Assembly: GCA_958295745.1 (NCBI GenBank)
Contig: OY282370.1
Coordinates: 1,226,311 to 1,290,310, forward strand
Reading direction: 5' to 3'
DNA length: 64,000 nt
Origin: an uncultured Acidimicrobiia bacterium
GTDB taxonomy: Bacteria; Actinomycetota; Acidimicrobiia; Spongiisociales; Spongiisociaceae
Shown here in pieces: positions 27,069 to 62,867 of the stretch (position 1 is the stretch's first letter; the number at the start of each line of letters is the position of its first letter). A program made the position numbers and the translations under genes. The notes beneath the pieces were generated by a model that saw nothing but the letters and a program-made list of their open reading frames with translations, was not told the DNA's origin and ran no database searches.

Positions 27069-27377
27069 ATGTCCATCGACTACCCCACCCACCCAGGTCT
27101 CAGCATCAAGGAAGGATGCCTAGGAGACGAGCTGACCGTAACCGAGGCCGCCCACCTCCTCGGCGTAACCCGCCGCACCCTATCCCGGATAATCGACGGG
27201 CGCTCCAGCATCTCCCCAGAAATAGCGATCCGCTTAGAGAAAGCCGGATGGTCCGACGCAGACTTCTGGATGCGCCGCCAAGCCTCCCACGACCAAGCGC
27301 AAGCAAGCAAACACAAGACCAGACCACCGTCAGCCCCCACCAAACACCCACCCCGACAACCGAAGCGACCCAGCTAG
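27069..27377 (+). CDS. higA: HigA-like XRE-family antitoxin / regulator, orphan
   Basis: A 102-residue protein opening with MSIDYPTHPGLSIKEGCLG, the HPG..L.E.L...G pattern of HigA antitoxins. A helix-turn-helix follows (LTVTEAAHLLGVTRRTLSRI, then SSISPEIAIRLEKA and a WMRRQ segment). The last third is a basic, proline-rich tail that HigA proteins usually lack. HigA normally represses its operon and neutralises the mRNA-cleaving toxin HigB, encoded just upstream. No HigB reading frame exists here; the upstream gene is the divergent ADP-ribosylglycohydrolase. No clear ribosome-binding site precedes the ATG, so it may be leaderless. The stop codon lies inside the start of repeat copy 1. Confidence 0.8.
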   Translation: MSIDYPTHPGLSIKEGCLGDELTVTEAAHLLGVTRRTLSRIIDGRSSISPEIAIRLEKAGWSDADFWMRRQASHDQAQASKHKTRPPSAPTKHPPRQPKRPS

Positions 27378-27650
27378 AACGCGAAAACCGCCGCCATGCG
27401 CCGCCGCCCTCTGGGCCCAGCCCCCACCTCCACCGCTCAGATCGTTACCTCGGTACCGGCGCGTGGGCCGGGCTCCCGGCCTAGGGGCGCCGGGCGAGAA
27501 TCCCGATATGATCACCGCCCTCTCTAGAACTCGGCAGCGATGTTTATGTTTTGGTATCCAACACTATATAGCATATCTGTGACATGATCAACCCCCTTCT
27601 GGAACAAGCTACCCCGAATATCCAACTCGGTCCTGCAGGCCTCTCGTCGC
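27371..27650. repeat. ~275-bp direct repeat, copy 1
   Basis: Imperfect direct copy of 28786-29059. The last ~145 bp are nearly identical; the rest has substitutions and small indels. It fills most of the gap between the HigA-like stop and the first coiled-coil gene (27378-27869). It contains a minus-strand promoter-like pair, a GC hairpin at 27475-27494 and a 13-codon minus-strand mini-frame starting at 27585. No gene of normal length is credible here. The remaining 27651-27869 holds nothing I recognise. Confidence 0.85.
27563..27591 (-). promoter_or_regulatory. Sigma70-like promoter in repeat copy 1
   Basis: On the minus strand TTGATC (27591-27586) is followed after exactly 17 bp by TATAGT (27568-27563). 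The same pair with the same spacing is conserved in the second repeat copy. The predicted transcript would start near 27556 and run through the repeat's GC hairpin toward the convergent HigA-like gene. Confidence 0.4.
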
Positions 27651-27869
27651 CGCCGACCCACCGCTATGACCGGAACACACGAACTGCGAGGACGTCTATC
27701 ACACGCGCCGTCGCGGACAACCCCTTACCGCCCTGGACTCCGACAGATGAACCCTGCCTCGGCGCAGACGACCCAACCGCTCCGGCTATCTCAGATCTCA
27801 AGGTTGCGTACGCCGCCGGTCATCTTGCCGAGGAACAAGGAACAAGGACAACCTCCCCGAATATCACAC

Positions 27870-28785: not shown

Positions 28786-29059
28786 CAGCTAGAACGCGAA
28801 AATCGCAACCACGCGCCGCCGCCCTCCGGGCCCAGCCCCCACCTCCACCGCTCAGATCGTTATCTTGGTACCGGCGCGTGGGCCGGGTCCCGGCCTGGGG
28901 GGCCGGGCGGGATCCCGATATGATCACCGCCCTCTCTAGAACTCGGCAGCGATGTTTATGTTTTGGTATCCAACACTATATAGCATATCTGTGACATGAT
29001 CAACCCCCTTCTGGAACAAGCTGCCCCGAATATCCAACTCGGTCCTGCAGGCCTCTCGC
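28786..29059. repeat. ~275-bp direct repeat, copy 2
   Basis: Second copy of the element at 27371-27650. Together the copies bracket the two coiled-coil genes. It fills much of the 583-bp gap 28612-29194. It contains a GC hairpin at 28889-28907 (CCCGGCC, loop, GGCCGGG). The copy 1 hairpin uses different bases but still pairs, hinting at selection for structure. The rest of the gap (28647-28785, 29060-29194) shows nothing recognisable. Confidence 0.85.
28975..29003 (-). promoter_or_regulatory. Sigma70-like promoter in repeat copy 2
   Basis: TTGATC (29003-28998), 17-bp spacer, TATAGT (28980-28975) on the minus strand. The predicted start near 28968 lies some 350 nt before paralog B, so it could drive a leader RNA or a small RNA rather than the gene directly. 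Confidence 0.4.
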
Positions 29060-29194
29060 CGCCGACGCCGCCTCGACCCCCGACGTTCCGGATGGGGGCA
29101 AGCCGACGCGGGCGGGCCGGTCTTCGAAGCCCGCCTCCGGCAGGCGAGGCCGGTTTCGCACGGAAACATAGCCCTATCCCTTGGAACCACCCAT

Positions 29195-33140: not shown

Positions 33141-35189
33141 TCAGAGGAACCCCCGCGGCGTCGAGCAGTACCAGGTCCGAGAGAAGCGGAGCATCCCGTC
33201 GGTGCGCACCTCCACCGCGGTGACCCCATGGAAGTCGTCGCGGCCGCCGGACACGCGGCTGGTCGTCTTGACCTCGGTGGCGGAGGCGCCGTGGTCCACC
33301 TCGAAGCGATAGTCCGATTCGACGCTGGAGCGGGCCGGGTCCGTCCGGTCGGCGGACGCCCGGAACTCGACGTGCGTGTAGACCCGGGAACCGTTGTCGT
33401 GGACGGCGCCGCCGCCCAGGGAGATAACCGCGCCTACCTTGGCGCCGGACAGGTCCTCCACCATCTCCCAACGGAGGGGTTCGGCGGCGCCCAACGGCTC
33501 GGGCAGTGGATGGGCGGGCCGGTAGTCGGGGGCTGGGAGGCCGGAGTCGGACCGCCCCACCACCGGGAGGGTGATCCGCGAAGGGTGATCGGCGTCCATG
33601 TGAAGGGTGTTGACGGCCTGTTCCGGCAGCGGCCACACCAGGGGGAAATCGGAGCTCGAGACCAGCACCCCGATCCGGTGACCGGCCCCGAACACGTAGG
33701 AGGCGGGTTCCATCTCGATGTTCAGCTCGTACACCCGCCCCGGTTCGAGGGGTTCGGGCTCGGTGCGGGAGTTTCGCTGGGAGGCGTTCCGGATGACCCT
33801 GGACACGAGCGCCCAGGGGCCGTCCGGATGGACATCCACCAGCTTGACCGAGAAGGCGGTCACTTCGGCGGTCGAGGAGACGAACAGGGACGCTTGGGGG
33901 AAGCCGGTCGCCTCGAGGTCGGCCTCGAGGGGAGGCCCCATGAACACGAGCGAGGCGGCCGCCTCCCGGCGCTGATCGAGGGGCAGCCCGGTGTCCTGGC
34001 CGAATCCGGTGATCAGCCCCATCGTCGAGAAACCCACCGCCGGGTCGTAGTCGTAGGAGACGCTCCCGCCGCCGCCCGCCCCGGTCTCGGCCCCGGTCTC
34101 GGCCCCGGGCGCATCCTCCGAGAGCCGCCCGTCCGACCGGAGATAGAATGTCTCGGCCTCGGCCCTGGCCAAGGGCCACTCGCCCTCGCTGCGCCAGCAA
34201 CCGGCGGCGGTCTCCCTCCTGGCGGCGGGTTCGTCGTAACCCCGCACCCACACGGCGATGGGAGGTTCGTCGGCGATGCCGGTGTCCTCCCCCTTCAGGT
34301 GAAGGTCGAACCACCGGACGATCTCGTGGAGGTGGTCCACCCGCGGCCCCGGAGAACCTATGTTGGGGGCGATGTGCAAATAGGGGCCCATCATCAGCTT
34401 CTTGGGGACGCCGGGCGCCAGCCCCCGGTAGATGTGGAAGGGGTCCGACACGAAGATGTCGTGCCAACCGCCGATGATGAAGGCGGCGCACCGGATGTTC
34501 CCGAGTCCGTACCGGACCGATCCCTCATGCCATACCGGGCCGTCCACCGGGTTGCTCATCCAGGTGTTCAACCAGGGCCGGTTGCCGGCCAGATGCTCCT
34601 CCCATATCTCCAGCCAGGCGCCCTCCGGGTCGGCGGCCGGGGGCGCTCCGGCCAGCGCGGTCATCATGGCGTTGTAGGCCCCCGACCAGATGGAAGTCTG
34701 CCACATCCCTCCGGGGTGGCTGTTCTCGTAGAGGTCCCACCCCGCATAGATCGGTGCGATGGCCTTCAGGTGCGGGGGGGCTTGGGCGGCGGTGAGGAGG
34801 GCCGAGTAGCCGCCGTAGGACACCCCTGTCATCGCCACCGACCCGTCGCACCACGGCTGGGTGGCCAGCCACTCCACCGCGTCGTAGCCGTCCTCCCATT
34901 CCTGGAGGCGCAGCATCCGGTCGCACACCCCTCCCGAAGCGCCCGTCCCGCGCACGTCGAGCAGGGCGGTGATATATCCGTGGGCGGCGAAGTAGTCGGC
35001 GCGGGGAACGGTGAGCGCCCGGAGCATGTCGTCCTTGCGGTACGGGTAGTACTTGATGATGACGGGGGCCGGGTCGTCCGTCTCGGGCAGGAACAGGTCG
35101 CAGGACAGCTCCACCCCGTCCCGCATCGGTATGCGGACGTTGGGCCGGGTTCGCGCCGGGGCGGGTCTTTCCTCGAGCCAGGCGGTCAT
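33141..35189 (-). CDS. CocE/NonD-family (peptidase S15-like) alpha/beta hydrolase
   Basis: A 682-residue hydrolase of the X-Pro dipeptidyl-peptidase/CocE family, acting on esters or amides. The nucleophile elbow is TGVSYGGYSA (Ser124), with acid in GGWHDIF (Asp244) and base in GPYLHIA (His272). An oxyanion Tyr may lie in KYYPYRKDD. The C-terminal half is the jelly-roll domain typical of the family (SYVFGAGHRIGVLVSSSDFP). No signal peptide, so cytoplasmic. It is the first gene of the minus-strand trio with the aminotransferase and the protease. An amide- or ester-bearing amine substrate feeding the aminotransferase is a reasonable but unproven link. No strong ribosome-binding site is seen before the ATG. 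Confidence 0.88.
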   Translation of the reverse strand: MTAWLEERPAPARTRPNVRIPMRDGVELSCDLFLPETDDPAPVIIKYYPYRKDDMLRALTVPRADYFAAHGYITALLDVRGTGASGGVCDRMLRLQEWEDGYDAVEWLATQPWCDGSVAMTGVSYGGYSALLTAAQAPPHLKAIAPIYAGWDLYENSHPGGMWQTSIWSGAYNAMMTALAGAPPAADPEGAWLEIWEEHLAGNRPWLNTWMSNPVDGPVWHEGSVRYGLGNIRCAAFIIGGWHDIFVSDPFHIYRGLAPGVPKKLMMGPYLHIAPNIGSPGPRVDHLHEIVRWFDLHLKGEDTGIADEPPIAVWVRGYDEPAARRETAAGCWRSEGEWPLARAEAETFYLRSDGRLSEDAPGAETGAETGAGGGGSVSYDYDPAVGFSTMGLITGFGQDTGLPLDQRREAAASLVFMGPPLEADLEATGFPQASLFVSSTAEVTAFSVKLVDVHPDGPWALVSRVIRNASQRNSRTEPEPLEPGRVYELNIEMEPASYVFGAGHRIGVLVSSSDFPLVWPLPEQAVNTLHMDADHPSRITLPVVGRSDSGLPAPDYRPAHPLPEPLGAAEPLRWEMVEDLSGAKVGAVISLGGGAVHDNGSRVYTHVEFRASADRTDPARSSVESDYRFEVDHGASATEVKTTSRVSGGRDDFHGVTAVEVRTDGMLRFSRTWYCSTPRGFL

Positions 35190-35210
35190 GGGTCAGGAGA
35201 CTACACCGGG

Positions 35211-35412
35211 GTGTCGAATGTTCCCCGCCGTGCAGGTCTTCGGGCTTGTACTGGCGGGGATTATCTATGTTTCGAGGGGGCCCGGTTGGGGGGTGGATGG
35301 GTCATGCGTCGCTTGCCCGTCCGTCCTCGACCCGCCTATAATGGTGTCGAATGTTCCCCGCCGTCCGAGTCTCCGACTCGCACTGGCGGGGATTTATCTA
35401 TATGGCAAGGCC
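35211..35412. repeat. Two copies of a ~70-bp hairpin-forming intergenic repeat
   Basis: The segments at about 35211-35280 and 35343-35408 share gtgtcgaatgttccccgccg at one end and ctggcggggat(t)tatctat at the other. Each folds with CCCCGCC pairing to GGCGGGG; the second also has an inner GAGTC/GACTC pair. They lie upstream of the CocE-type hydrolase gene. Function unknown; an intergenic repetitive-element class is plausible. Confidence 0.6.
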
Positions 35413-35584
35413 CCCTAAGAGGGCGCGCGGATAGGTGCTCACCTGGGAAAACACTGCTTGCGGCGGTTGATGAGCCCACAGCCATAGCCAGGGGTTCCGA
35501 ACTGGATCCTGACCGGCGTCTACGAACAGAAACGGCCGCGGTCCGCCTATCCGCTAAGCCGAGGTTTTTCGCGTTCTCCCGCCG

Positions 35585-35604
35585 AAAAACCCGGCTTCGC
35601 CGGG
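35585..35604 (-). terminator. Rho-independent terminator (minus strand)
   Basis: CCCGGC-GAA-GCCGGG followed by TTTTT on the minus strand: a perfect 6-bp GC stem with a 3-nt loop and a T run. It could end a transcript from the promoter-like pair at 35840-35812 or read-through from the giant gene at 36143-42430. Confidence 0.6.
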
Positions 35605-35805
35605 CCCTGCCCCCGCCGCCACCAAACCACCGTCTTCGGGCTGCGGGGGGCGTGTTACCACCGCCCGTGCCCGATGCGTTTTCAGCCACAGCTACTTCGT
35701 ACCGCTCCGCCCTTCGGTCGCCTGCCTGCCTGCGGGAGGCGGTCGGCCTGGGCGGTTCGATTCCTCTCTGATCGCAGTATCCGGATTCACTGCGATATCT
35801 GCTCG
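35585..35805 (-). ncRNA. Candidate small RNA between a promoter-like pair and a terminator
   Basis: The 800-bp gap 35190-35992 has no convincing gene. On the minus strand it does hold TTGGCG (35840-35835), a 17-bp spacer, TATAGT (35817-35812), a perfect hairpin ATCGCAGT/ACTGCGAT just after the predicted start, and the terminator at 35604-35585. That outlines an RNA of about 220 nt. I match it to no known RNA family. A small reading frame overlaps it but has no coding hallmarks. Confidence 0.3.
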
Positions 35806-35811
35806 TACAAC

Positions 35812-35840
35812 ACTATACAACAGTAATGAGACAACGCCAA
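35812..35840 (-). promoter_or_regulatory. Sigma70-like promoter upstream of the candidate small RNA
   Basis: TTGGCG, exact 17-bp spacer, TATAGT on the minus strand, predicted start near 35805. It points away from the giant gene at 36143 and toward the terminator at 35604. Confidence 0.4.
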
Positions 35841-35992
35841 TACCCTTCCGGCGCCAATCCAAAACTTTTTTGGCGATCTTCCCCCTTAAGTCATAGAGGC
35901 AGGAAAAGGTCGATGGCCGACCGCGTTGTTCGTCGGATATGGCGCCGCCGGCTCAACGCCGCTGACTACAGGCTGATGCAGGACAAACGAAA

Positions 35993-36099
35993 CTACACCC
36001 GGCCATAGGGCAAGGGGTCGTCGGAGGCGAACTTGCGCAGGACGTTGCCGGTGATCCTCGAGACGTTGTTGTCGTAACCGTTGTGGGAGAGCCCGGCGC
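35993..36099 (-). pseudogene. 3'-terminal fragment of the dimethylformamidase-like gene
   Basis: A 93-bp stretch (36007-36099) is identical to the last codons of the gene at 42778-45024. In that gene's frame it reads on past KFASDDPLP as YGRV and a TAG at 35995-35993, whereas the intact gene stops right after DDPLP. This fragment therefore probably holds the original end of the dimethylformamidase-like gene, and the intact copy's end was created when the intervening 6.7 kb arrived. It has no start and is not expected to be expressed as protein. Confidence 0.75.
36007..36099. repeat. 93-bp perfect direct repeat, left copy
   Basis: Identical over 93 bp to 42780-42872. The two copies bracket a 6.68-kb segment whose only large gene is the second giant surface protein. 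The arrangement resembles the direct repeats left by site-specific or homologous insertion at a gene's 3' end. No integrase gene is present between them. Confidence 0.9.
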
Positions 36100-36142
36100 C
36101 CTGGATTGGTGGGGTGCCGGGCCGGGTTGGGGGGTGGATAGG

Positions 36143-39100
36143 TTATGTGCTGGTTGGGGTGGTGGCGGGGGCGAGGTCGATGGCTCTGACGAAGAACGAG
36201 GCCATCTGTGCTCGGGTTACGGGTTGGGTGGGGCAGTAGTCGAGGGGGGTGGTGGAGCATCCTTTGGTTACTCCCGCCGCGTACATTCCTTCTATGGCTG
36301 CTATGACGGCGGGGTCGAGGCCTTCGGTGTCGTTGAAGAGGCCTGCGGGGGTTTCCACCGATGTGAGGTGGGGGAAAGCGGCGATCATCATCGTTGCCAT
36401 GTCGGCTCGGGTGACCACCCCGCCGGGGTTGAACATCCCGTCGGGCGCGGTGAACGCTCCGACCGAGACCACCCACTGGGCGAAGGCGCGGAACCATTCG
36501 TCGGCGGCTACATCGGTGAGCTCTATCCCTTGGGGGGCTTGAATCGTCCAGCGTAGGGAGACGGCCCGGTACAGGAAAGCGGACATCTGTCTTCTGGTGA
36601 CCCGATCCCCGGGGCAGTATTTGGTGGGGTCTTGGGCGTCGCAGCCGAGGGTGATCCGCCATCCGGCGATGCGTTCGATGTTGGCCTGGTGGCTGTTGCC
36701 GTCGTCGTCGCAGAACCGGCCCTGGCATACCGGCGCGGGAGGGGCGGGGGGTTGGACCGGGGGCGGAGCACCGCCGCCTCCACCTCCTCCACCGCCTCCA
36801 CCGCCTCCGCCCCCTCCACCTCCTCCACCGCCGGTGTCGCCGTCGTCGGTGATCGTCAAGGCGGTCGCAGAGACGGTGAACCCGGAGGCGGCGCCGGTAA
36901 CGGAAACCGTTTTGCTGTTGCCGGGGGTGGTGTCGTTGACGGCTCTGATGGTGAAGGTTCTCGTCCCTGACAGGCTGCCGGCGGGGATGGTGATCCGGAG
37001 AGTGGCCGGGCTCAGATTGGTGTAGCCGTTCCCCGACGCGGCGCCGCCTCCTACCGTTACGTTGACGGTCACGGCCTCGGTCAGTACCTTGGAACCCGAC
37101 AGACGGGCGGTAACCGTCCTGGTGACGGTGCCTGCGTTTTCGGACACCGACGACTGATTCAACGACAGCCGTATCCGGGTCGGTCGGTTGTCGTTGTCCT
37201 GAATGGTGAAGGTAACGGGTGCGATGTCGAACCCGGCCGCGGTGCCGGTTACCCGCAGCGTCTCGTCCCCCTCGGCGATGTTGTCGTCGTATGAACCGGC
37301 CAAGTTCAGACCGAACACATCGCCGGCGTTGTTCTGGACGCTCGGCAGGAAAATGTCATAGACGGGTGTTGCCAGAATGGCGTAGTCGTCTCCGGCGGTG
37401 GCGGTGCCGTCCGAGACGGTGACCCGCACCACCCGGGGGGTGGTGGAGGTAGCCGTCCCGGGATACGAAACCCGTACCCGTACCTGCGGGTGGGTTCCCT
37501 CCCGGGCTGTGGTCAAAGGGTCATCGGAGGCGTCCACCAGGGACAAGATGATGTCGTTGTCGGTGATGGTCAGATCGTCGGAGTTCACGGTCGTGAAACC
37601 CAGACCGGTGAGGCCCGCCCCCAGGGCGCCGGCGTGCACCGATGTGTTTTCGGACCCTTCCACCGCCTCGTCGTCGATGATATCGAGGTCGAACTCGGCG
37701 GTCCCGGCCGTGCTGTACGCCCCGATAGTCACCGACGGCGACACCGGCTCGTAATCGGTTCCCGACGCTGCGGTGTCTCCCGACGCTCCGCCCACCGCGA
37801 GCGGCACCGTCACCGACCGGGGCAGCGTCTTGCCCCCCGCCAAGGCGGCCCGCACCCGCACCCGCACGGTTCCGTCGCCTTCTCCTACCCCTTCCAGGTC
37901 CTGGCCCTCGTCGGACTGTAGAGTCAACCCGATAGTGGTCGGTGCGGTGTCGTTGTCGGTGATTCCAAAACCGGCCGACACCACCTCATAGACAACAGAG
38001 TTGATGGTAACGTCGCCGCCTTCTATCACTACTGTCTCCGCTGTGCTCCCCTCCGCGACGTCGTCGTCGTTCAACACCACCGTGAACGTTGCCGTCCCCG
38101 ATGAAGCACCGGCGGCGATGTGAACAGCCAAACCATGATCGGTCGGGGGCGCCGGGGTTTGGCTTGTTGGGTAGGAAACCTGAAAGTCTTCCCCCACCCC
38201 CCAGCCGGCGCCGTCCGCGTCCAGCACCGCGGTGCCGCCCACCGCGTTCACTCCCACCACTACCCCGCCCGAAGGTGCGGTAACACCCGACGGCAAAGAG
38301 GCCGAAATCTGCACCGTAACCGTCCCGGCTGCTTCCCCCACCGAGGATTGAACACCCGACGTTGCGGTATCCGCGTCGTCCACCGCCAGGGTGATTCCCC
38401 GGTTGGGGTCGGCGATGTTGACCGCCGCCGGGTCCACCACCAACGTCTGCCCGCCGATCGATGCCGACCCGGTCAACTTACCCGTCTCCACCCCCTCCGT
38501 GTTGCTGTCGGTAGCCGCGGTCAGATTGAACGTGGCGCTCCCGCTCAACGCCCCCGCCGGGATCACAACCGTCACCTGATCACCCGTGGCGTCGGTAGTG
38601 AAATCACCCGACCCGCCCAGGGTGGCGCCGCCGGTTCCGTCACCCGACGCGATCTGCACCGTCACCGTCGTGTCCGACGTCAAGATCGTGGATGAACCCT
38701 TGAACCGGGCGGTTACCCTCACCTCCCCCGTGGCGCCCTCCACCACCGTCCCCGGCGATACCGACAACACAATCCCTGAGTCGTCATCGGTAACCGTTAC
38801 CTCGGCCGCAGTGGTTTCCCGGGTCTCGCCTCCCAGCACATAACTCCCCGCCAGATGCAGCGTTTCCGGCCCCTCCACCACCGTGTCATCGGTGATCGAC
38901 AGGCCCGGCAGCGACACCGCCCCAGCACCCGGGCTGGCAACCCCCGTGCTCGGAATCGTCACCGACAAAGCAGGATTCGGCGGCGTATACGAAAAATCGT
39001 CCGCTCCCGCAGTCCCCGCTGATGGTGACCCCAACGTAACTACCGTATCCGAACTCAAACTGTTGGTGGTTACCCCGGTCGGAAACGAAGCCGTAACCGA

Positions 39101-42100
39101 CAGACCCGAACCGTCCCCGCCCTCGGAAACCGTCCCGGAAGAGGTCAACACCACCGCAGTATCCACCCTGTCCACGATCGTCGCCTCGGCCCGAACCACC
39201 GTAAACCCATCCACCGCTTCGCCGTCCGTCGTTGCGCTTTCCAGCGTCACGTAAAACACCTTGGGCGGCTCCGCTGCTGTGTCCGACCTGATATTGACAC
39301 CGAAACCGACATTTCCTGAAACAGCACCCGCACCGATATTGATAAACCGTCTATTAGACAACGTACTATCATCGAGACTGTGAAAACCATCCGCAGGGCC
39401 GGCCCCCATCGCGGCGGTGCCGTCCTCTGTTGTCAACCGCATCCTCAGATTGCTGCTGTAAGTAGAAGTTTCACCGCTGAACCTGGCCGTCGCGATCCTG
39501 GAAACCCCGGCCTGTGCTGTTCCTTCCTCATACACCGGATCATTCAAAGTCACCGTAACCGTCCGGTCGGCATCAGTAATCACCAAACTGGTCGGCCTTA
39601 CCGCATACCCCGCAGATGTTCCCGTGAAACGGATCGTCTCATGATCCTCGGTAACCGTATCCCCGACAGGCGTGATCGTAATGTCGGCGGTTCCGCTGGT
39701 AGAACCATCAGGGATCGTAACAGTAATCGCCGAGGCCGAAGCGGTGTAATCATCCGACGCGTCAGCGGTGCTGCCCAACGCGCCCACCGACACCGACACA
39801 TCCAAGTTACTACCGCTCGGCGCCGTACCCACCGCAGCCGTAACCCGCACCGTCTGCGCCCCCCCGTCCTCACCCAGCGCCGCAAGAGCCACCGGAGGAG
39901 ACTGGGTGTCGGTCAAAGAAAGCGTAATCTCCGAACCCGGATCCATGATCCTCAACGAAGTATCCGTAACAGTCACCGCCGCGCCGCCCACATTCACCGT
40001 CCCGTACGCCGACAACGTCACCGTCTCCCCGCCGGCCTCGACCGCGCCGTCATCCACAGCCGTCAACTGAAAAGTCTTGCTGCCGCTGGTCCGACCCGCC
40101 GGGATCCTGACCGTCAACCGCCCATTGGAATCCAAACCCGAAGTAGTAAAATCAGTTGTCGCCGTAGCCGTCCCACCCGCCACCTGCACCACAACATCCG
40201 TGGGCGACGTCAAAACCGACGTGCTGCCCGCGAACTCGGCCACCACCGTCACCGACTGCGCATCCCCGCTCTCCGCCACTACCCCCGGCGACACCGACAA
40301 ACTGATATCAGCATCATCATCAGACACCGTCACCAGCCTCTCCCGCTCCTCAAACGTAACCACCTGGGCAGCACCCGCAGCAAGAGACGGCCTACCCACG
40401 ATCCGCAACCGCTCCGGCCCCTCCACCACACTGTCATCGACAACAGCCAACCCCCTCAAAATCACCGAAGAACCACCATCGACTGCAGCATCACCCGCGT
40501 CGATAGTCAACGAATGCAACGACGTGTACGAAAACTCATCGGCGCTCAAAAACCCTATCCCCGGATCCGTCTCCTCCACCACCGAAAAGTCTACCGTCGT
40601 ATCAGAAGTCAACAAAGAACGAGGTTCACCAAATAAACCACGAGCGTGCATCCCGGCCTCAGTCGACACATCAGTCCCGGACGAACCCTCCGCCACCGTA
40701 ACATCATCACCACCGTAACTGATCTGCACATCATCATCGATAATCAAAGCCTGCGCATTGACAACCGTAAACCCTTCCACCGGTCTCACACCTATCCTGA
40801 AGGTCTCGTCCGGCTCCGCGATATCGTCAACCCAGGAGCTAAGGTTCTGCCCCGAGTCAAAACCGCCGGTCCCGTATAATGTCCCGCTAGTAATGGACAC
40901 ATATTTGGGAGAAGCCCACCACTCTTTCAATTCAGTATAAACATCGTTGTGTGAGCCTCTATCTTCCCCATAAGCTACTTCAGCAGTCTCACTGAAGGCA
41001 TCTATTCGCATCTGCAGATTACTACTGTATGTGGATGAAGTAACCCCTTCAAAACTAACTGTAAACTGTGGCAAAGGGCCAACATTACAATACCGACATT
41101 GATCGGTATTCCCCACTGAATCCGTACCTTCATAAATAGTTATGGGAGAGTCCAAGGTAACGACAATGGTACGGTCGGCGTCGGTAATCTGCAGGTCGGC
41201 CTGGTTCACGGTGTACCCCGTGGCCGAACCGGTGAAACGGATGATCTCGTGGTCTTCGGTAACCCGATCCGACAGAGGAGTGAACGACAGAACGCCCGAA
41301 GACCCGCCGGTCTCCCCGGAACTGATCGTAACGCTCGCAGCGGCGGCGGTGGTGGTGTAATCCCCTCCCGCCCCGGCGGTAGCAGTGGTACCGGTATCGG
41401 CGATAGTGACCGTCACCTCGATATCGGCGGGCGCGGGCGCCGGAACCGCAGCCGTCACCCGCACTTCCTGTGTTCCATCGTCCTCGCCCAGCCCGGTCAA
41501 CACAACAGGCGGGTCGGCATCGTCGGTGAAACCGAGCGACACCACCGCATCATGAATAGACATCTCCGCTCCGGTCACCGACACCCCCGCCGATGTTCCC
41601 GAAAGCTCCACCTTCTCCCCCCCGGCCTCGGCGTCAGCATCCACATGAGCCCGCAAATCGAACGACCCCGAACCGCTCACATCCCCCGCCCCGATAGTTA
41701 CCGTGAACTCATTACCCGTCTGATCAGTCGAAAAATCACCCGTCTGCGACAACGTCGACCACGTACCCAAAGTCGCCCCGTCCCCTCCCGAACCCCCCGC
41801 CGCCGACACCACCACATCCGTTCCCGCCGCCAGATCCGACGCCGACGCCCCCGTAAACGCCGCCGTCACCGTCACCGTCTGCGCACCGTCATATTCCAGC
41901 ACCGCCGACTTGTCCAACGACAACGTAACGCTGTCATCGTCGTCATCGGTAACCGGCAAATTAGCATCAGCAATCGTGTAACTCGTAGCACCCGTAGCAG
42001 TAGCAGAAAAAACGATCGTCTCGTCGCCCTCCACACGCGTGTCGGACAACGCAGTCACCGTCAAAGCCGGCGAATACCCTATCGTGTCTCCCACCCCGAT

Positions 42101-42430
42101 CGATATCGTCGTCGACGACGCCGAAGCCGTGTAATCATTCCCCGCACCCGACGCAGCCGTACTCCCCGCAGCCCCAACCGTCACCGAAACCGACACCGCC
42201 GACCCCGTAACCGCCGCCGAAGCCGTCGCCACCACCCGCACCGTCTGCGCCCCGCCCTCTTCAGACACCCCTGTAACGGCCGACGCAGGACTCCCCCCAT
42301 CATCGAAACTCAAAGTAATCGACGCAGACTGCCCCACCACCCCAACGGGCGCAACCGGCAACACCCCCACCACCAAACCAACCAACAACCCCCACCCCAA
42401 CCAACGCCTCGACATAGACCGCCCCATCAT
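36143..42430 (-). CDS. Giant Calx-beta repeat surface protein with C-terminal SLH anchor
   Basis: A complete 2,095-residue secreted protein. Signal peptide MSRRWLGWGLLVGLVVGVLP, cleavage near VVGQS. The body is about sixteen Calx-beta-type repeats (ITLSxDD..., TVTIxAGxxSG, DDxxxEGxETIxxxG, ITDxDxxI). A run of about 22 glycines and the proline linker APPPVQPPAPPAP lead to three SLH repeats at about 1901-2095, each with paired cysteines (LGCDAQDPTKYCPGDRVTRR; KGCSTTPLDYCPTQPVTRAQ). Such a protein would hang from the cell wall and bind Ca2+; adhesion is the usual guess. GGAGG lies 7 nt before the ATG at 42430. The SLH sequence pattern matches the protease at 29195-31678. The whole gene sits between the 93-bp direct repeats. 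Confidence 0.92.
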   Translation of the reverse strand: MMGRSMSRRWLGWGLLVGLVVGVLPVAPVGVVGQSASITLSFDDGGSPASAVTGVSEEGGAQTVRVVATASAAVTGSAVSVSVTVGAAGSTAASGAGNDYTASASSTTISIGVGDTIGYSPALTVTALSDTRVEGDETIVFSATATGATSYTIADANLPVTDDDDDSVTLSLDKSAVLEYDGAQTVTVTAAFTGASASDLAAGTDVVVSAAGGSGGDGATLGTWSTLSQTGDFSTDQTGNEFTVTIGAGDVSGSGSFDLRAHVDADAEAGGEKVELSGTSAGVSVTGAEMSIHDAVVSLGFTDDADPPVVLTGLGEDDGTQEVRVTAAVPAPAPADIEVTVTIADTGTTATAGAGGDYTTTAAAASVTISSGETGGSSGVLSFTPLSDRVTEDHEIIRFTGSATGYTVNQADLQITDADRTIVVTLDSPITIYEGTDSVGNTDQCRYCNVGPLPQFTVSFEGVTSSTYSSNLQMRIDAFSETAEVAYGEDRGSHNDVYTELKEWWASPKYVSITSGTLYGTGGFDSGQNLSSWVDDIAEPDETFRIGVRPVEGFTVVNAQALIIDDDVQISYGGDDVTVAEGSSGTDVSTEAGMHARGLFGEPRSLLTSDTTVDFSVVEETDPGIGFLSADEFSYTSLHSLTIDAGDAAVDGGSSVILRGLAVVDDSVVEGPERLRIVGRPSLAAGAAQVVTFEERERLVTVSDDDADISLSVSPGVVAESGDAQSVTVVAEFAGSTSVLTSPTDVVVQVAGGTATATTDFTTSGLDSNGRLTVRIPAGRTSGSKTFQLTAVDDGAVEAGGETVTLSAYGTVNVGGAAVTVTDTSLRIMDPGSEITLSLTDTQSPPVALAALGEDGGAQTVRVTAAVGTAPSGSNLDVSVSVGALGSTADASDDYTASASAITVTIPDGSTSGTADITITPVGDTVTEDHETIRFTGTSAGYAVRPTSLVITDADRTVTVTLNDPVYEEGTAQAGVSRIATARFSGETSTYSSNLRMRLTTEDGTAAMGAGPADGFHSLDDSTLSNRRFINIGAGAVSGNVGFGVNIRSDTAAEPPKVFYVTLESATTDGEAVDGFTVVRAEATIVDRVDTAVVLTSSGTVSEGGDGSGLSVTASFPTGVTTNSLSSDTVVTLGSPSAGTAGADDFSYTPPNPALSVTIPSTGVASPGAGAVSLPGLSITDDTVVEGPETLHLAGSYVLGGETRETTAAEVTVTDDDSGIVLSVSPGTVVEGATGEVRVTARFKGSSTILTSDTTVTVQIASGDGTGGATLGGSGDFTTDATGDQVTVVIPAGALSGSATFNLTAATDSNTEGVETGKLTGSASIGGQTLVVDPAAVNIADPNRGITLAVDDADTATSGVQSSVGEAAGTVTVQISASLPSGVTAPSGGVVVGVNAVGGTAVLDADGAGWGVGEDFQVSYPTSQTPAPPTDHGLAVHIAAGASSGTATFTVVLNDDDVAEGSTAETVVIEGGDVTINSVVYEVVSAGFGITDNDTAPTTIGLTLQSDEGQDLEGVGEGDGTVRVRVRAALAGGKTLPRSVTVPLAVGGASGDTAASGTDYEPVSPSVTIGAYSTAGTAEFDLDIIDDEAVEGSENTSVHAGALGAGLTGLGFTTVNSDDLTITDNDIILSLVDASDDPLTTAREGTHPQVRVRVSYPGTATSTTPRVVRVTVSDGTATAGDDYAILATPVYDIFLPSVQNNAGDVFGLNLAGSYDDNIAEGDETLRVTGTAAGFDIAPVTFTIQDNDNRPTRIRLSLNQSSVSENAGTVTRTVTARLSGSKVLTEAVTVNVTVGGGAASGNGYTNLSPATLRITIPAGSLSGTRTFTIRAVNDTTPGNSKTVSVTGAASGFTVSATALTITDDGDTGGGGGGGGGGGGGGGGGGGGGAPPPVQPPAPPAPVCQGRFCDDDGNSHQANIERIAGWRITLGCDAQDPTKYCPGDRVTRRQMSAFLYRAVSLRWTIQAPQGIELTDVAADEWFRAFAQWVVSVGAFTAPDGMFNPGGVVTRADMATMMIAAFPHLTSVETPAGLFNDTEGLDPAVIAAIEGMYAAGVTKGCSTTPLDYCPTQPVTRAQMASFFVRAIDLAPATTPTST
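36770..36836 (-). repeat. Poly-glycine simple-sequence tract
   Basis: About 67 bp of imperfect (CCNCCN) repeat on the plus strand encodes the ~22-residue glycine run between the Calx-beta repeats and the Pro-rich/SLH anchor. Such tracts change length by slippage in steps of three, which would vary the spacer without breaking the frame. Confidence 0.8.
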
Positions 42431-42777
42431 CGACCCTCCTCCAATCCAACCCCCCCGGGTGCACCGGAGGTGCAGAAGCCGACTGATAATAACAAACGTT
42501 TGAGGCTTCCACCACCGATATATGTCAAAATCACAAACGGACCCCGACGTTGGACTCCACCCAGCCGATCCCCCTACGGCGCAACAGCTCCATCACCGCC
42601 GGAAACAGGATCATGTGAGCGCCGGAAAGAACAGACAACCCACGGCGCGGGAAAATGACATCGATGTGTTTTCATCGACGGTCGGCTTAGCGCCGGCGGC
42701 CTCCCGGCATGACTACGGACGTCGGTATTCTGATGTCGCAGATACAGACCTGAAACCGGCCCTCCTCGGCTAACCGG
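42431..42777 (-). promoter_or_regulatory. Upstream region of the second giant gene
   Basis: The 347 bp between the dimethylformamidase-like stop and the giant ATG holds no convincing gene. On the minus strand I see a consensus -35 TTGACA at 42528-42523 without a good -10 at standard distance, an AT-rich TATTAT at 42491-42486, and a perfect 10-bp palindrome CAAACGTTTG at 42494-42503 that could be an operator. A 27-codon frame (42614-42531) may be debris. Confidence 0.3.
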
Positions 42778-45024
42778 TCAGGGCAAGGGGTCGTCGGAGG
42801 CGAACTTGCGCAGGACGTTGCCGGTGATCCTCGAGACGTTGTTGTCGTAACCGTTGTGGGAGAGCCCGGCGCTCCAGGCTATGGACCCGGTGGAGAACAC
42901 CGCCCCTCCGTTCGGATATTCGAAGAGCACCATGTCCGCCCGCACCAGATCGTTGGTGGTGCCGGTCTGCTCTGAGTTCATGTGCATCACCTCCTCCACC
43001 ACGTGGTGGAAAGTGTCGTCGAACTCGGTGGCCGAAGCCAGCAATAGGGCGTGGGCGGGCGTTCCCAGGTCGTGATCCAGGCGGTCCACTTCGTAACCGG
43101 CCACTCCCCACCCCAGGTTCAAGGTGTCGAAGTCGCCGATCGCCTCGTCGTCTCCTATCCCCTCGAAGACGAAGGCGGCCCTGGGGTCGAAGCTGTCCGG
43201 AAGCCGGTGATAGGCGGCGTTGACCCCGTTGCCCCCCTGGGCGGTCATGCCGACCCCCACCAGCTTCTGCGGCGCCCGGTTGCGGAACCGCCACAGACCT
43301 CCCGGCTCTCCCGTGGTGCTGTGGTGGGACTCTTCGTGCTCCGTCCTCCACGAGCCGGTGCCGTTCCAGCGCCGCACTTCGATCACGTGGGGCCGCTCCG
43401 GGTCCACCGAGGTGACCCAGTAGAGGCCGTTGCCCCCCAGGTACATGAAACGGCCCCCGCCGTTCAGGTAGACCTCCAGCGCCGCCAGCATGTCCTCGGT
43501 CCAGTATTCGGGGTGGGTGCTGGTTACCACCACCTTGTATCCGGAGAGCAGGTCGGCCCCGTCGAAATGCACGTCCTCGTCGGTGATCACGTCGTGCTCG
43601 AATCCGCGGCTCTCCATCCAGTCGATCTCGTGGAGGTCGGCCGACAGCAGGGCCGGCGCCCCCAGACCCGCCCCCAGCGTCCGCTGCTTGTTGTTGGGGC
43701 GGAAATTGAGGACCGGCTTGAGGATCGATGAGTAGCAGATGCCGCTCCCGTCGGTGTGGAGGTCGTACAACCCCCCCAACTTGTTGTCGACCATGTAGTG
43801 CTCGGCGGGGAGAAGGGGGAAGTCGATCTTCCTCCCCTTCCCCTCCATGTATTCGACCAGGACCGGGTTGTTGGCCAGGTGCTCGTTGGCGTAGGCCATA
43901 TAGGTGTAGGTGCTGAGCAGGAAGGCGATCCGGGCGGTGGGGGCCCCGGTCTTGGGGCGCACCGCGAACGGGAGGTAGTCCTCGGCGTCCTCGGTGGAGA
44001 CGCGGAAGGCGTACACGGCGCTCTTCAGGTCTTCGGGGATGGTGTACTCGAAATCCACCTCCCAGCCGGCGTCCTCCAGGTCGTCGTTGTTGAAGCGGAT
44101 GGCGGCGTACTGCTCGGGAGCATGCTTGAAATCCACCGCTCGGCCGGTCCAGTTGTGGCCGGTTACAGCGCGGGTGGGCATGTTGACGACTTTTCCGTGG
44201 AGGCCGTTGGGGGAGGTGTCCGTGACGGCGGTTGCGGCGAAGTCCCGTCCGAAGTCCCAGGCCGCCGCCAAGTCGGGATCACCGGATACCCGGGCGCCGT
44301 TCTCCCGCCAGCGGGCGATTTCCTCGGCGCCGGCCGCCCGCCCCAGGATCACCGGGTTGTCGATCTTCCCATTGTAGAGCCCGGCCGGCTTCCCGCCCCG
44401 CCTGTAGCCGGCTATCACCAGGTCGGCGCCGTTCTCGGCAGGGCCGCCGGGCGTTGCCGGGCCGGAGGTTTCCGCCGCCGTGTCCATGAGCGGCCACCGG
44501 TCGAGCGGGCGCTGGTAGAGGCGCAACGAGCCTTCCTCGGCGTCATACACCCCGGCGGCGAAGTACCACTTGGCGGCCTGGAGGGGCACGCCGCTGCCGA
44601 GCGCCTCGACCCCTTTGCCGCCGCCGTGGCCGACCCGCACGGAGAGGGCGCCCTCTTCGTCTATGAAGAGCCCGTAGCCGGCACCTTCGTCCTCGTCCCA
44701 TTTGGTGACCACGCCTTGGAGGCCCTGGTCGGGGGTGGTGGGGTATATCCAGGCCTGGATGGTGAAGCTCCCCACCGCCAGACGGGGATGGTCGGGCGCC
44801 GCCGCATACGAACCGGGTGTCAGTTCCTGCACCCGGCCCGGGTATTCGCCGTTGGCCGGGGATTCGACCATCTCCATCTTGGTTCCGGGGCCCCTGGGGT
44901 GGTCGTCGCCGTTGATGACGCGCACCAGCTGGGCGCTATAGCCGGGCTTCCGGCAGCTCACCATGAAGCGGATGGTCTCCCCCGGCTGGGCGCCCCACTT
45001 GTCGGAATAGCCGACGATCTCCAT
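42778..45024 (-). CDS. N,N-dimethylformamidase large (beta) subunit-like amidohydrolase with LamG insertion
   Basis: A 748-residue relative of the catalytic subunit of N,N-dimethylformamidase, a mononuclear-iron amidohydrolase. The N-terminus IVGYSDKWGAQPGETIRFMV matches the family. A LamG/concanavalin-like domain (FTIQAWIYPTTPDQG, WYFAAGVYD, DNPVILGRA) spans about residues 80-290, followed by the catalytic part. THPEYW at 503-508 contains the His504 and Glu506 expected near the iron; upstream tyrosines around GSGICYSS may be further ligands. The real substrate may be another small amide. GGAGG lies 6 nt before the ATG. No small alpha subunit is nearby. The final residues look replaced: the fragment at 35993 suggests an original end PYGRV. 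It is divergent from the SDR gene across a repeat-bearing control region. Confidence 0.82.
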   Translation of the reverse strand: MEIVGYSDKWGAQPGETIRFMVSCRKPGYSAQLVRVINGDDHPRGPGTKMEMVESPANGEYPGRVQELTPGSYAAAPDHPRLAVGSFTIQAWIYPTTPDQGLQGVVTKWDEDEGAGYGLFIDEEGALSVRVGHGGGKGVEALGSGVPLQAAKWYFAAGVYDAEEGSLRLYQRPLDRWPLMDTAAETSGPATPGGPAENGADLVIAGYRRGGKPAGLYNGKIDNPVILGRAAGAEEIARWRENGARVSGDPDLAAAWDFGRDFAATAVTDTSPNGLHGKVVNMPTRAVTGHNWTGRAVDFKHAPEQYAAIRFNNDDLEDAGWEVDFEYTIPEDLKSAVYAFRVSTEDAEDYLPFAVRPKTGAPTARIAFLLSTYTYMAYANEHLANNPVLVEYMEGKGRKIDFPLLPAEHYMVDNKLGGLYDLHTDGSGICYSSILKPVLNFRPNNKQRTLGAGLGAPALLSADLHEIDWMESRGFEHDVITDEDVHFDGADLLSGYKVVVTSTHPEYWTEDMLAALEVYLNGGGRFMYLGGNGLYWVTSVDPERPHVIEVRRWNGTGSWRTEHEESHHSTTGEPGGLWRFRNRAPQKLVGVGMTAQGGNGVNAAYHRLPDSFDPRAAFVFEGIGDDEAIGDFDTLNLGWGVAGYEVDRLDHDLGTPAHALLLASATEFDDTFHHVVEEVMHMNSEQTGTTNDLVRADMVLFEYPNGGAVFSTGSIAWSAGLSHNGYDNNVSRITGNVLRKFASDDPLP
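42780..42872. repeat. 93-bp perfect direct repeat, right copy (3' end of dimethylformamidase-like gene)
   Basis: The right copy lies inside the 3' end of the gene at 42778-45024 and covers its final ~30 codons. It is identical to 36007-36099 and diverges immediately on both sides. Confidence 0.9.
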
Positions 45025-48717: not shown

Positions 48718-49581
48718 ATGGTGACTGTCACCCGTCGGATAGTGGGCAATGCCGCGCGGCGGCGAAAGCGCATGATCGCCTTCGGCTGGTACGGGGGCAA
48801 GTTCAGCCATCTCAATTTCATCCTTCCGAACCTGCCGGAGGACGACCGCCATTTCTGTGATGTGTTCGGCGGGTCGGCGGCGGTGATCATCAACCGCCGT
48901 CCTGCGCCGGTCGAGACGTACAACGACATCGACTCAGAGGTAGTGAACTTTTTCAGGGTTTTACGGGATCCGGATACCAGCGATCAGCTGATCAAGGCCA
49001 TAGCCTTGACGCCTTTTTCACGAGAGGAGCTGGTGAGGGCTTTGGAGCTCTCCGCCGATCCGTTGGAGCGGGCGAGGCGGTTTTTCGTGCGGGCGCGCCA
49101 GACCCGGACGGGGTTGGCGCAGACTTCTTCCGAAGGCAGGTGGGCGCATTGTCTGCTGACTTCTCGGGCCGGGATGGCCGGCGCCGTGTCGCGGTGGTTG
49201 GGTTCGGTGGAGGGTTTGTCGGAGATCGTTCAGCGTTTGCAGCGAATCCAGATCGAGAACGCCCCCGCCTTGGAGATCATACAGCGTTATGATTCGGCCG
49301 ATACCCTTTTTTATATAGATCCGCCCTATGTGCATGATGCCCGCGGTGATTCCAAGGCTTATGGGGTGGAGATGAGCGATGATGATCATCGGGAGCTTGC
49401 CGGGTTGTTGTTGGAGATAGAAGGCAGGGCGGCGGTGTCCGGTTATCGCACTGCTTTGTACGATGATCTGTTTGGATCATGGCGTCGAGTGGATGCAGAC
49501 CCCAAGACCTGTCATTCGGTTAGGCAACCGAGACAAGAGTCACTGTGGGTCAACTACGACGACGGCGGCGTTCTTCTCTGA
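48718..49581 (+). CDS. D12-class DNA adenine-N6 methyltransferase
   Basis: A 287-residue DNA adenine methylase of the MT-D12 (Dam/DpnM/EcoRV) class, which transfers methyl from S-adenosylmethionine to adenine N6. Motifs in order: FGWYGGK (22-28, motif X), DVFGGSAAV (48-56, motif I), YNDID (68-72) and DPPY (201-204, catalytic motif IV). AGGAGG lies only 3-4 nt before the ATG at 48718; the next codon is GTG at 48721, and Met19 just before the first motif is an alternative. It is followed after 42 bp by a restriction-enzyme gene, so the pair is read as a type II restriction-modification system in which this enzyme protects host DNA. Confidence 0.88.
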   Translation: MVTVTRRIVGNAARRRKRMIAFGWYGGKFSHLNFILPNLPEDDRHFCDVFGGSAAVIINRRPAPVETYNDIDSEVVNFFRVLRDPDTSDQLIKAIALTPFSREELVRALELSADPLERARRFFVRARQTRTGLAQTSSEGRWAHCLLTSRAGMAGAVSRWLGSVEGLSEIVQRLQRIQIENAPALEIIQRYDSADTLFYIDPPYVHDARGDSKAYGVEMSDDDHRELAGLLLEIEGRAAVSGYRTALYDDLFGSWRRVDADPKTCHSVRQPRQESLWVNYDDGGVLL

Positions 49582-49623
49582 ACCGGTCATCGTATTCTGA
49601 GTAGTCTGCCAGAGTGTTTTGCG

Positions 49624-50718
49624 ATGAAGGTAATGGACAATACGGAGGCAGCCAGTTGGCTGGACAAATCGTGGCGAGCTATCGTGGCAGAATCCAATTT
49701 GGAGTCTGACCCTGAGATAGATATCATTCAGAATTCTAGCTATGTCTCTATCAGATATGTTCTGATTACACAGTTGTTGGGTAAATTCGCGGATGGAAGC
49801 CGTGATGCGTTGTGTCTGCAGAGGGGTGCTAGGGAGAGGGCTGCCGAGGAAGGGCGGTGGGATCCTCGGAGTTTCTGCGCCCGTGTAGTGGTTCCTTGGG
49901 TTCAACGTACCGACAATGTGTTGGGAACCAGCACCGATCCGTATGTGAGTAAGCCTTTGCGTAGGCGGCGGATCGATGAATGGTCTACACCGTTGAAGGC
50001 GCGAGACGAGTGGGACAGGGTAGAGCGTGTTCTACGAGAGGTGCAGGACCGTGACGATCCGGCTTTTACCGAGCAGACCTTGCGGAGATGTCTAGCTAGT
50101 ATTGCCCGACGGTATCTTGAGCTCGACATCGAATATGCTATTCCGGTTCGGGTTAGCTACTCACAGTTGATCTCTGCTGTAGAGCGGTTTCTAGATGCCA
50201 AGAGTGGAGGAGAGCGTCCGCTGATTGTTGCCTCTGCATTATTACGGATTCTAGGCAACCAATTCGGCCTTTTCGATGAGGTGACAAGACAGGGTATCAA
50301 TGAACCTGATGATCCTAAGGGATCTCCAGGAGATATCCTTTGTTATCTGTTGACGAAGGATGCGAAGGTTCTCATACTGGCTATTGAGGTAAAAGACCTG
50401 GAACTTACACTGGTAGATGTGAATGCTACGATCCAGAAAGCACGCAGGCAAAAGTTGGCCGATATATTGTTTATCTCTCCTGATATATCCTCTAAGGATA
50501 GAGCGGTGGTGGAAGACAGATTTTTCGAGGAATGGGCCAAGGGCCTCAACCTCTACCAGCTACCTTTGCTAGATATCCTGAGAGTGTTGGCGGCATTGTC
50601 AGGCGAAGGTATACGCCCGGTGCTGCTCAAAGAGATCGGGGACGAAATCAACCGGTCTGCCTCCCAGCCTGCCCTCAGAACGGCTTGGGCCGACGTCCTG
50701 CGTTCAACGGTGGGGTAA
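49624..50718 (+). CDS. SacI-family type II restriction endonuclease
   Basis: A 364-residue protein resembling the SacI restriction-enzyme family. The likely PD-(D/E)XK site is Asp237 (GSPGDILCYL) with Glu255-Val-Lys257 (LAIEVKDLEL), the right spacing for this fold. The N-terminal half includes LGKFADGSRDALCLQRGARE and FCARVVVPWV, typical of the family. The prototype cuts GAGCTC; specificity here cannot be read from sequence. Base composition is visibly more AT-rich than the flanking metabolic genes and codon use is less biased, suggesting recent transfer. It pairs with the adenine methylase 42 bp upstream. Confidence 0.72.
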   Translation: MKVMDNTEAASWLDKSWRAIVAESNLESDPEIDIIQNSSYVSIRYVLITQLLGKFADGSRDALCLQRGARERAAEEGRWDPRSFCARVVVPWVQRTDNVLGTSTDPYVSKPLRRRRIDEWSTPLKARDEWDRVERVLREVQDRDDPAFTEQTLRRCLASIARRYLELDIEYAIPVRVSYSQLISAVERFLDAKSGGERPLIVASALLRILGNQFGLFDEVTRQGINEPDDPKGSPGDILCYLLTKDAKVLILAIEVKDLELTLVDVNATIQKARRQKLADILFISPDISSKDRAVVEDRFFEEWAKGLNLYQLPLLDILRVLAALSGEGIRPVLLKEIGDEINRSASQPALRTAWADVLRSTVG

Positions 50719-61031: not shown

Positions 61032-62867
61032 ATGGTCGAGACAGAGCATACCGAGCATCACGAGAAGGCCGCCATATTCGTCGAGCATCTGACGATCCGT
61101 AACTTCAGGGGGATTCGGAAACTCGACCTGCGCCTGCAACCGGGCCTCACCCTGCTCGTAGGGCGCAACAACGCTGGCAAGTCACGTATCCTGCGCGCCC
61201 TGCATGTGGCCGTAGGGGGTAAGCAGGCCAAACGTGATGACCTAACCGTAGGATCGAAAGGCAACGCCGAGATCGATGTGGTGATCGCTCCCCGGGCGGC
61301 AACGCCTCCTAGTGATTCCACCCCGCTCGCCTCAGAGACAAAAGACTCCGGTGAGGAGACCTTCGAAAAGTCGGTAGAACAACGGATAGGTGTACGGATC
61401 CCTCATATCTCCACCGAGCCAGAGCGCCAGCGGTTCGCGTGGCGAACAACTATCTCATCGATCAGCGAGGGTACCGGGGCCCGCAGCCGATCACTTGTAA
61501 TGACTTATGCGAACGGAGAATGGAATCCACTAGTAACCACCACCTTGACCACAGAACAGCGAAACCTCTTTGCCGCGGAGCTGGTGGACGCACAACGCGA
61601 CTTGGACACAGAACTCCGGCGTCCTGGCAGCGTGTTGCGCCGTATCCTGAACGATTTGAACGTACCAGAACAAGAGCGGGAAGAGCTGGAAGATCAGCTT
61701 GCCAAGTTAGGTGATGAAATCGTCAACCAAAGTCGCACTCTTCAGGAGTTCCATAAAACCCTCAAATCATTAAAAAGATATATGGATGCTATGGGGAATA
61801 CAAGAATCGACGCAGTGCCGGGCACTCTCGAAGAACTTGCCCGAACGGTAGGTGTGAGCTTCGATACAGGCCAGGGACAACTGGCAGCAAGACTGCAGGG
61901 ATCAGGGGCGCGCAGCCTTGCCTCTCTGCAGGTACAGGATCTGTTCTATCGTATACGTCTAGGAAGCGACGGCACCAGCTTACGTCCACACATGGTGACC
62001 CTGATCGAGGAACCCGAGTCCCATCTTCACCCCCACGCCATCTTCGAGTTGCCAAACTTGTTGGAGAACCAGTACCGCCAGGTCGTAGCCGCCACCCACT
62101 CACCGCAACTAGCTACAGTCGTTGACCCAGAAGCCCTGCGGCTGGTGCGGAAATCATCGAATGGAGATCACTTTGTCATCGATTTCGGTCCTGCCGAGGA
62201 GGAATATCCCGATACTCCTCGTACCAAGAGGCGACAGTTCCATGTACCGGAGATGGAAAAGCTGAAAAGGATGGTGGAGCGGCCGTTCGGAGATCTGTTG
62301 TTCGCAAGGGCCATCGTGATCGGCGATGGTGCTACCGAAAGGGCCTTTCTGCCGCCCGTACTACGCGACGCCTTGGGCCATATGGCACACGGTATATCAG
62401 TCGTAGATTCCACTGGAATGAACCCCAATCTTGTTGAGGCGGTGATAAAATTCTCTCGACACGTTGAAGTCCCTCTCCTAGTACTGGCTGACAACGACTC
62501 AGCAGGACGTAAGCATGTGAACCGACTCCTACAAAACAATAAGTTAGACTGTAACCAGGTCATATGGATACAAGGTGATCAGAATAACGGAAACGATGGT
62601 GTCAGCTTAGCAATAGAGCAGATGATGATCGACTTTGACCTAGAATTATGTCAACGGGCATGCCAAACCAACAATCTACCTTTCGACACCAAAGATATTG
62701 CTTTTAAATCTATGAAAAGTAACAAGGGAAGTATGGGGGTTGCCATTGCGGAGGCGTTCGTGAAGGCCTATCCATACACAGACCACAGACCGCAGTGGCC
62801 AAAATCTCTGAGAGAGTTGATTGAGTGGTTGCGCCGCAATCTTAGTGGTAAAAGAGAGGACAATTGA
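61032..62867 (+). CDS. gajA: Gabija GajA-like ATP-gated OLD-family nuclease
   Basis: A 611-residue protein. The N-terminal ABC-type ATPase has Walker A GRNNAGKS (44-51), a signature-like GSGARSL (290-296), Walker B VTLIEEPESHLHP (322-334) and switch His356 in ATHSPQ, with a coiled-coil stretch around 185-260. The C-terminal TOPRIM nuclease has IGDGATE (Glu436) and LADNDSAG (Asp487, Asp489). This is the architecture of GajA, the DNA-nicking subunit of the Gabija anti-phage system, and the next gene is the matching helicase. The last ~450 bp are AT-richer than the start. The gene has no operon link to the PLP-enzyme gene 79 bp upstream. A non-defence OLD nuclease is the alternative, made unlikely by the partner. 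Confidence 0.88.
   Translation: MVETEHTEHHEKAAIFVEHLTIRNFRGIRKLDLRLQPGLTLLVGRNNAGKSRILRALHVAVGGKQAKRDDLTVGSKGNAEIDVVIAPRAATPPSDSTPLASETKDSGEETFEKSVEQRIGVRIPHISTEPERQRFAWRTTISSISEGTGARSRSLVMTYANGEWNPLVTTTLTTEQRNLFAAELVDAQRDLDTELRRPGSVLRRILNDLNVPEQEREELEDQLAKLGDEIVNQSRTLQEFHKTLKSLKRYMDAMGNTRIDAVPGTLEELARTVGVSFDTGQGQLAARLQGSGARSLASLQVQDLFYRIRLGSDGTSLRPHMVTLIEEPESHLHPHAIFELPNLLENQYRQVVAATHSPQLATVVDPEALRLVRKSSNGDHFVIDFGPAEEEYPDTPRTKRRQFHVPEMEKLKRMVERPFGDLLFARAIVIGDGATERAFLPPVLRDALGHMAHGISVVDSTGMNPNLVEAVIKFSRHVEVPLLVLADNDSAGRKHVNRLLQNNKLDCNQVIWIQGDQNNGNDGVSLAIEQMMIDFDLELCQRACQTNNLPFDTKDIAFKSMKSNKGSMGVAIAEAFVKAYPYTDHRPQWPKSLRELIEWLRRNLSGKREDN

Follow-up and report, generated by a model that had tools for sequence, protein, structure and literature searches.

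The stretch of DNA analyzed here (the window; 64,000 nucleotides, G000:C1:1226311-1290310) lies within a 3.0-Mb contig of the 3.3-Mb genome of an uncultured Acidimicrobiia-type bacterium. Its minus strand carries an intact dimethylformamidase-like gene (DMFase-like gene; 42778-45024), the product of which has a Laminin_G_3 domain and a C-terminal domain like that of the N,N-dimethylformamidase beta subunit (Pfam DMFA2_C) and ends in DDPLP-stop. Downstream on the same strand is a giant gene (36143-42430) encoding a surface protein of 2095 amino acids with Calx-beta repeats, a poly-glycine stretch, and a C-terminal SLH domain, and the far side of the interval is formed by a gene for a peptidase S15/PepX-like hydrolase, also on the minus strand (33141-35189). 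The giant gene is bracketed by two copies of a 93-bp sequence, at 36007-36099 and 42780-42872, which lie in direct orientation with a spacing of 6773 bp. An earlier note on this DNA had described these repeats as perfect and as derived from the last codons of the DMFase-like gene, and both descriptions hold: 93/93 bases are identical, similarity breaks off abruptly at either side of both copies, and the right copy, in its native context on the minus strand, constitutes the last 31 codons of the gene. The left copy, likewise on the minus strand, is non-coding and begins 44 bp past the stop codon of the giant gene; it has no start codon of its own, and its reading frame runs on to YGRV-stop.

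A search of the whole 3.3-Mb genome returned no third copy of the 93 bp, and the only other match was a 56-bp stretch of 79% identity within a paralogous gene. In relatives from the same family, the orthologous 93 bp are identical to ours at only 74 to 81 of 93 positions (12 to 19 differences). Given this divergence, and given that one of our copies is non-coding, the presence of two identical copies is not due to chance, and the duplication must be recent on the scale of the family. Two other roles for the sequence were considered and rejected. It folds no better than shuffled sequence (z of 0.81), which speaks against a structured RNA, and it does not resemble the template and variable repeats of a diversity-generating system, as its two copies do not differ and the window genes examined include no reverse transcriptase.

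The giant gene is the only long gene between the repeats, and its product contains Calx-beta and SLH domains only. No integrase, excisionase, recombinase, or other element gene was found among the open reading frames (ORFs) of the interval, in keeping with the earlier observation that no integrase is on board. The best match to the giant protein is a paralogue, a 5055-aa ORF of the same genome, with 54% amino acid identity over the C-terminal half, and a search of 14 other genomes of the family with 308 aa from the non-SLH part of the giant protein gave no match. Numerous SLH genes and no fewer than four further giant ORFs, of about 2947, 5055, 9515, and 10646 aa, are present in the genome, at several loci of C1 and at 2-26065 of the window. 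No comparable flanking repeat was found at three other giant genes of the genome, and their flanks share with those of the giant gene studied here only an interspersed repeat; the proposal that giant genes of this kind form a recurring type of cassette is thus not supported by these three loci. The window does contain another short repeat (27371-27652 versus 28786-29064), in which 282-bp stretches are 95% identical, with 111 exact bases. It lies near two similar coiled-coil-like ORFs and is a recent duplication located between a further giant gene and the SLH gene that comes next.

The locus was compared with that of nine relatives, all of one family. In each of them the S15 hydrolase gene comes directly after the DMFase-like gene, at a distance of 221 to 1591 bp, and in none of the nine does this interval hold a giant gene. 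The contents of the gap differ: it is nearly empty in L030, holds a gene encoding an NYN-domain protein in L035 to L038 (Pfam PF01936, on the L037 homologue) and what by our reading of the translation is an AAA ATPase gene in L032, and contains fragments of both in L033. This interval between the DMFase-like and S15 genes is therefore a variable slot, with conserved flanking genes and contents that differ from relative to relative. Variable intergenic slots, or hot spots of gene content, are known for conserved flanking genes, varying contents, and fragments of former occupants; all three are present here, as known from one family and nine loci.

The DMFase-like orthologues of these nine genomes are 73 to 76% identical to ours at the amino acid level and also indicate where the gene natively ends. 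Eight of the nine have their stop codon at the position of the right copy's (seven end in DDPLP or DEPLP, one in DDALL), and the ninth ends in DDPLPNRP-stop. The YGRV terminus, which had been taken for the original end of the gene, occurs in 0/9 and must be given up as such; where the left 93 bp abut the 3' end of an NYN gene, the YGRV codons are simply the antisense of that gene's last codons. The proposed search for an empty site in relatives was accordingly successful in one respect and not in the other, as sites without the giant gene were found in all nine, but the expected DDPLPYGRV ending was found in none.

Comparison with the intact NYN genes of L035 to L038 also revealed remnants of one and the same NYN gene beside both repeats. 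At the left, an internally deleted NYN-domain gene on the plus strand (35913-36008) joins the first ~6 codons (MADRVV) to the last ~24 codons (..DKRNYTRP-stop) and is convergent with the DMFase-derived sequence; the identification of the six-codon start rests on a short match. At the right, a decayed and frameshifted middle piece of this NYN gene lies on the plus strand beside the copy (about 42685-42752) and matches the relatives' NYN genes with 79% identity over 67 bp (L036), 84% over 45 bp (L035), and 81% over 47 bp (L038). Farther inward from the right copy, after the decayed NYN piece, are degenerate 3' fragments, on the minus strand and with an internal deletion, of a putative gene for the B12-binding subunit of methylmalonyl-CoA mutase (42530-42648). 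These scraps match G000:C1:673927-674159 with 86% identity over 92 bp and 89% over 37 bp, and the gene at 674 kb of C1, read from its ORF, looks like one for a methylmalonyl-CoA mutase B12 subunit. The NYN gene that is intact in relatives is convergent there with the DMFase-like gene and ends ~79 to 120 bp past the DMFase stop codon. Since NYN pieces adjoin both 93-bp copies in native orientation, each side carries a native-type NYN/DMFase junction; the two repeats are thus remnants of one native junction that is present twice, with different decay, and with the giant gene in between.

These remnants bear directly on how the giant gene came to lie here. The earlier note had proposed the insertion of a 6.7-kb cassette with duplication of its target. 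That the giant gene is an addition to the locus stands, but a clean insertion that duplicated a 93-bp target does not, because NYN sequence native to the locus lies inside the right repeat, the NYN pieces differ on the two sides, and the mutase scraps are also inside.

Beyond the left copy, the broken NYN gene is followed by an interspersed repeat of ~478 bp, then by two hairpins, and finally by the S15/PepX hydrolase gene. The interspersed repeat (35412-35891) is non-coding and MITE-like and is present elsewhere in the genome in five near-full copies of 95 to 98% identity and many partial copies (L051-L068, L133), one copy (C1:118845-120798) being split by 1.48 kb that includes an IS110-family transposase gene. 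We rejected it as the cause of the 93-bp duplication, since it is dispersed in its own right and stops before reaching the left copy, with 115 bp in between. The hairpin is present as two plus-strand copies of 85% identity (35210-35268 and 35343-35401, within 35205-35405) and precedes the NYN gene in relatives. It is conserved in the intergenic regions of L030 to L038, with 16 pairs, of which 3 show two-sided changes, and is usually single there; two copies are found here and in G008. A dispersed mobile repeat was rejected, since this genome has two hairpins, both at this locus, and other genomes of the family have one or two, all but one of them at the locus. The hairpin is perhaps an mRNA leader or operator, and an Rfam search of 35000-36300 gave no match. 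In addition, 35278-35315 resembles the 3' flank of the giant gene at 36119-36156 (82%), and this likeness, together with the doubled hairpin, points to more than one rearrangement at the locus.

Insertion-duplication is the most likely cause of the layout and the best explanation we can offer, although our doubt about it is about as large as our confidence. In a Campbell-type insertion-duplication, a single homologous crossover yields a complete and a truncated copy of a gene, which form perfect direct repeats; the event requires no dedicated recombinase and can be reverted by RecA. At this locus too there are one intact and one truncated copy of the DMFase end, directly oriented and identical. 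The donor would have been a giant-bearing version of the locus, in the order DMFase 3' end, decayed NYN piece, mutase scraps, and giant gene, and the resident a version without the giant gene, in the order DMFase, internally deleted NYN gene, hairpin, and hydrolase. A crossover within the last 93 bp of the DMFase-like gene, either a single one with a circle or as an unequal exchange between alleles, would have placed the 93-bp DMFase end beyond the giant gene, presumably fused there to the resident NYN remnant. The unlike decay of the two NYN pieces would then have been inherited from two alleles, which agrees with a perfect match of the 93 bp. The order of the parts is plain from the sequence; what we infer from it are the crossover and the nature of the 93 bp, which we take to be a scar rather than a site that a dedicated recombinase would recognize. 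Unlike the plain Campbell-type case, both flanks here are decayed and only 93 bp of homology remain. A donor from this locus would be expected to carry NYN sequence of the locus, and such a piece is present in the right flank, but the search of the 14 family genomes with the giant-protein query yielded no donor, the small contigs of the assembly hold no alternative allele, and the orthologue search results include no second genome of the genus. The second copies of the hairpin and of the giant gene's 3' flank are imperfect, and one crossover does not explain them.

It is improbable, but worth weighing, that the giant gene instead arrived by site-specific integration at a gene 3' end, with the element's own 93 bp restoring the DMFase-like gene and displacing the old end, and with an integrase that acted in trans or has since been lost. 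Prophage e14 of E. coli is integrated in this manner at the 3' end of the protein-coding gene icd, where a displaced 163-bp icd' fragment remains (PMC6379469). The geometry of our locus agrees with that of e14, as a whole gene, an insert, and a displaced 3'-end copy followed by the old flank are arranged in the same order with direct repeats, the insert would be lost if the copies recombined, and sites without the giant gene exist in relatives. The locus differs from e14/icd in having no integrase or phage gene, with neither a tyrosine nor a serine recombinase in the would-be element, and in that both copies are flanked by pieces of one third gene, the NYN gene. On the supposed element side, the sequence continues into a decayed NYN remnant native to the locus. 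In addition, the supposed old gene end, YGRV, matches the gene end of none of the nine element-free genomes, and the three other giant genes have no similar flanks.

About equally improbable is break repair that inserted the giant gene with a long target duplication, of about 0.4 kb (the NYN 3' half plus 93 bp of DMFase), followed by independent small deletions in both NYN copies. Such a duplication would explain the NYN pieces on both flanks; the genome encodes Ku, so end joining is possible, and the left copy meets the NYN stop codon through a possible 2-bp (AG) overlap. However, several deletions are needed in both flanks, yet the non-coding left 93 bp remained unchanged, and we know of no donor copy of the giant gene. 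It is likewise improbable that a break next to the giant gene was patched with 93 bp templated by the DMFase end, in an event unrelated to the arrival of the giant gene: this would account for just 93 bp being involved and for their sharp ends, and short recent duplications are also present at 27.4-29.1 kb of the window, but the landing of the patch beside the NYN 3' end in native convergent orientation would have to be a coincidence. An assembly artefact in which two strain haplotypes were misjoined in the metagenome assembly is very unlikely, for although the layout reads like two haplotypes end to end, the estimated contamination of the assembly is 3.97%, and the relatives are MAGs, the window lies inside a 3.0-Mb contig, the repeat and its flanks are native to the locus and not random, and 93 bp is, to our knowledge, no default k-mer size.

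Overall, the locus is an intricate but otherwise ordinary scar of rearrangement that includes a giant gene. It illustrates how a lineage-specific giant surface gene can occupy a gap whose contents differ among relatives and leave a scar made of a gene end, and a perfect gene-end repeat alone is no proof of a mobile cassette. Because the repeat is perfect, the giant gene should be prone to loss by ordinary recombination: RecA-mediated recombination between the copies is predicted to delete 6773 bp, including the giant gene, from time to time, and joining of the flanks in a script showed that the DMFase-like gene would then end in DDPLPYGRV. The earlier suggestion that the giant gene could be lost through its repeats is thus supported as a possibility, with the loss through RecA being a prediction, while a dedicated excision system is not supported. 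Such repeat-mediated loss would be a way, open to testing, in which this uncultured bacterium could vary its surface. The broader notion that giant surface genes of this bacterium are exchanged between strains as circles without a recombinase, which integrate and are lost through homology to short stretches of neighbouring gene ends and thereby vary the surface reversibly, strikes us as highly improbable.

Several further observations were made in this genome. Contigs C2, C3, C5, and C6 of G000 each contain the same two weak matches 7239 bp apart, and a 9-kb stretch of C5 that we read consists of one long NHL-type ORF; these contigs may be redundant or contaminating. Within the window, a gene for a D12-class adenine methyltransferase adjoins one for a SacI-type restriction endonuclease (48718-50718), forming a type II restriction-modification pair. 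At the end of the window (61032-64000) are adjacent genes for an OLD-like ATPase/TOPRIM protein and a UvrD-like helicase, with best matches to GajA and GajB, and they are likely a Gabija anti-phage system cut by the window end.
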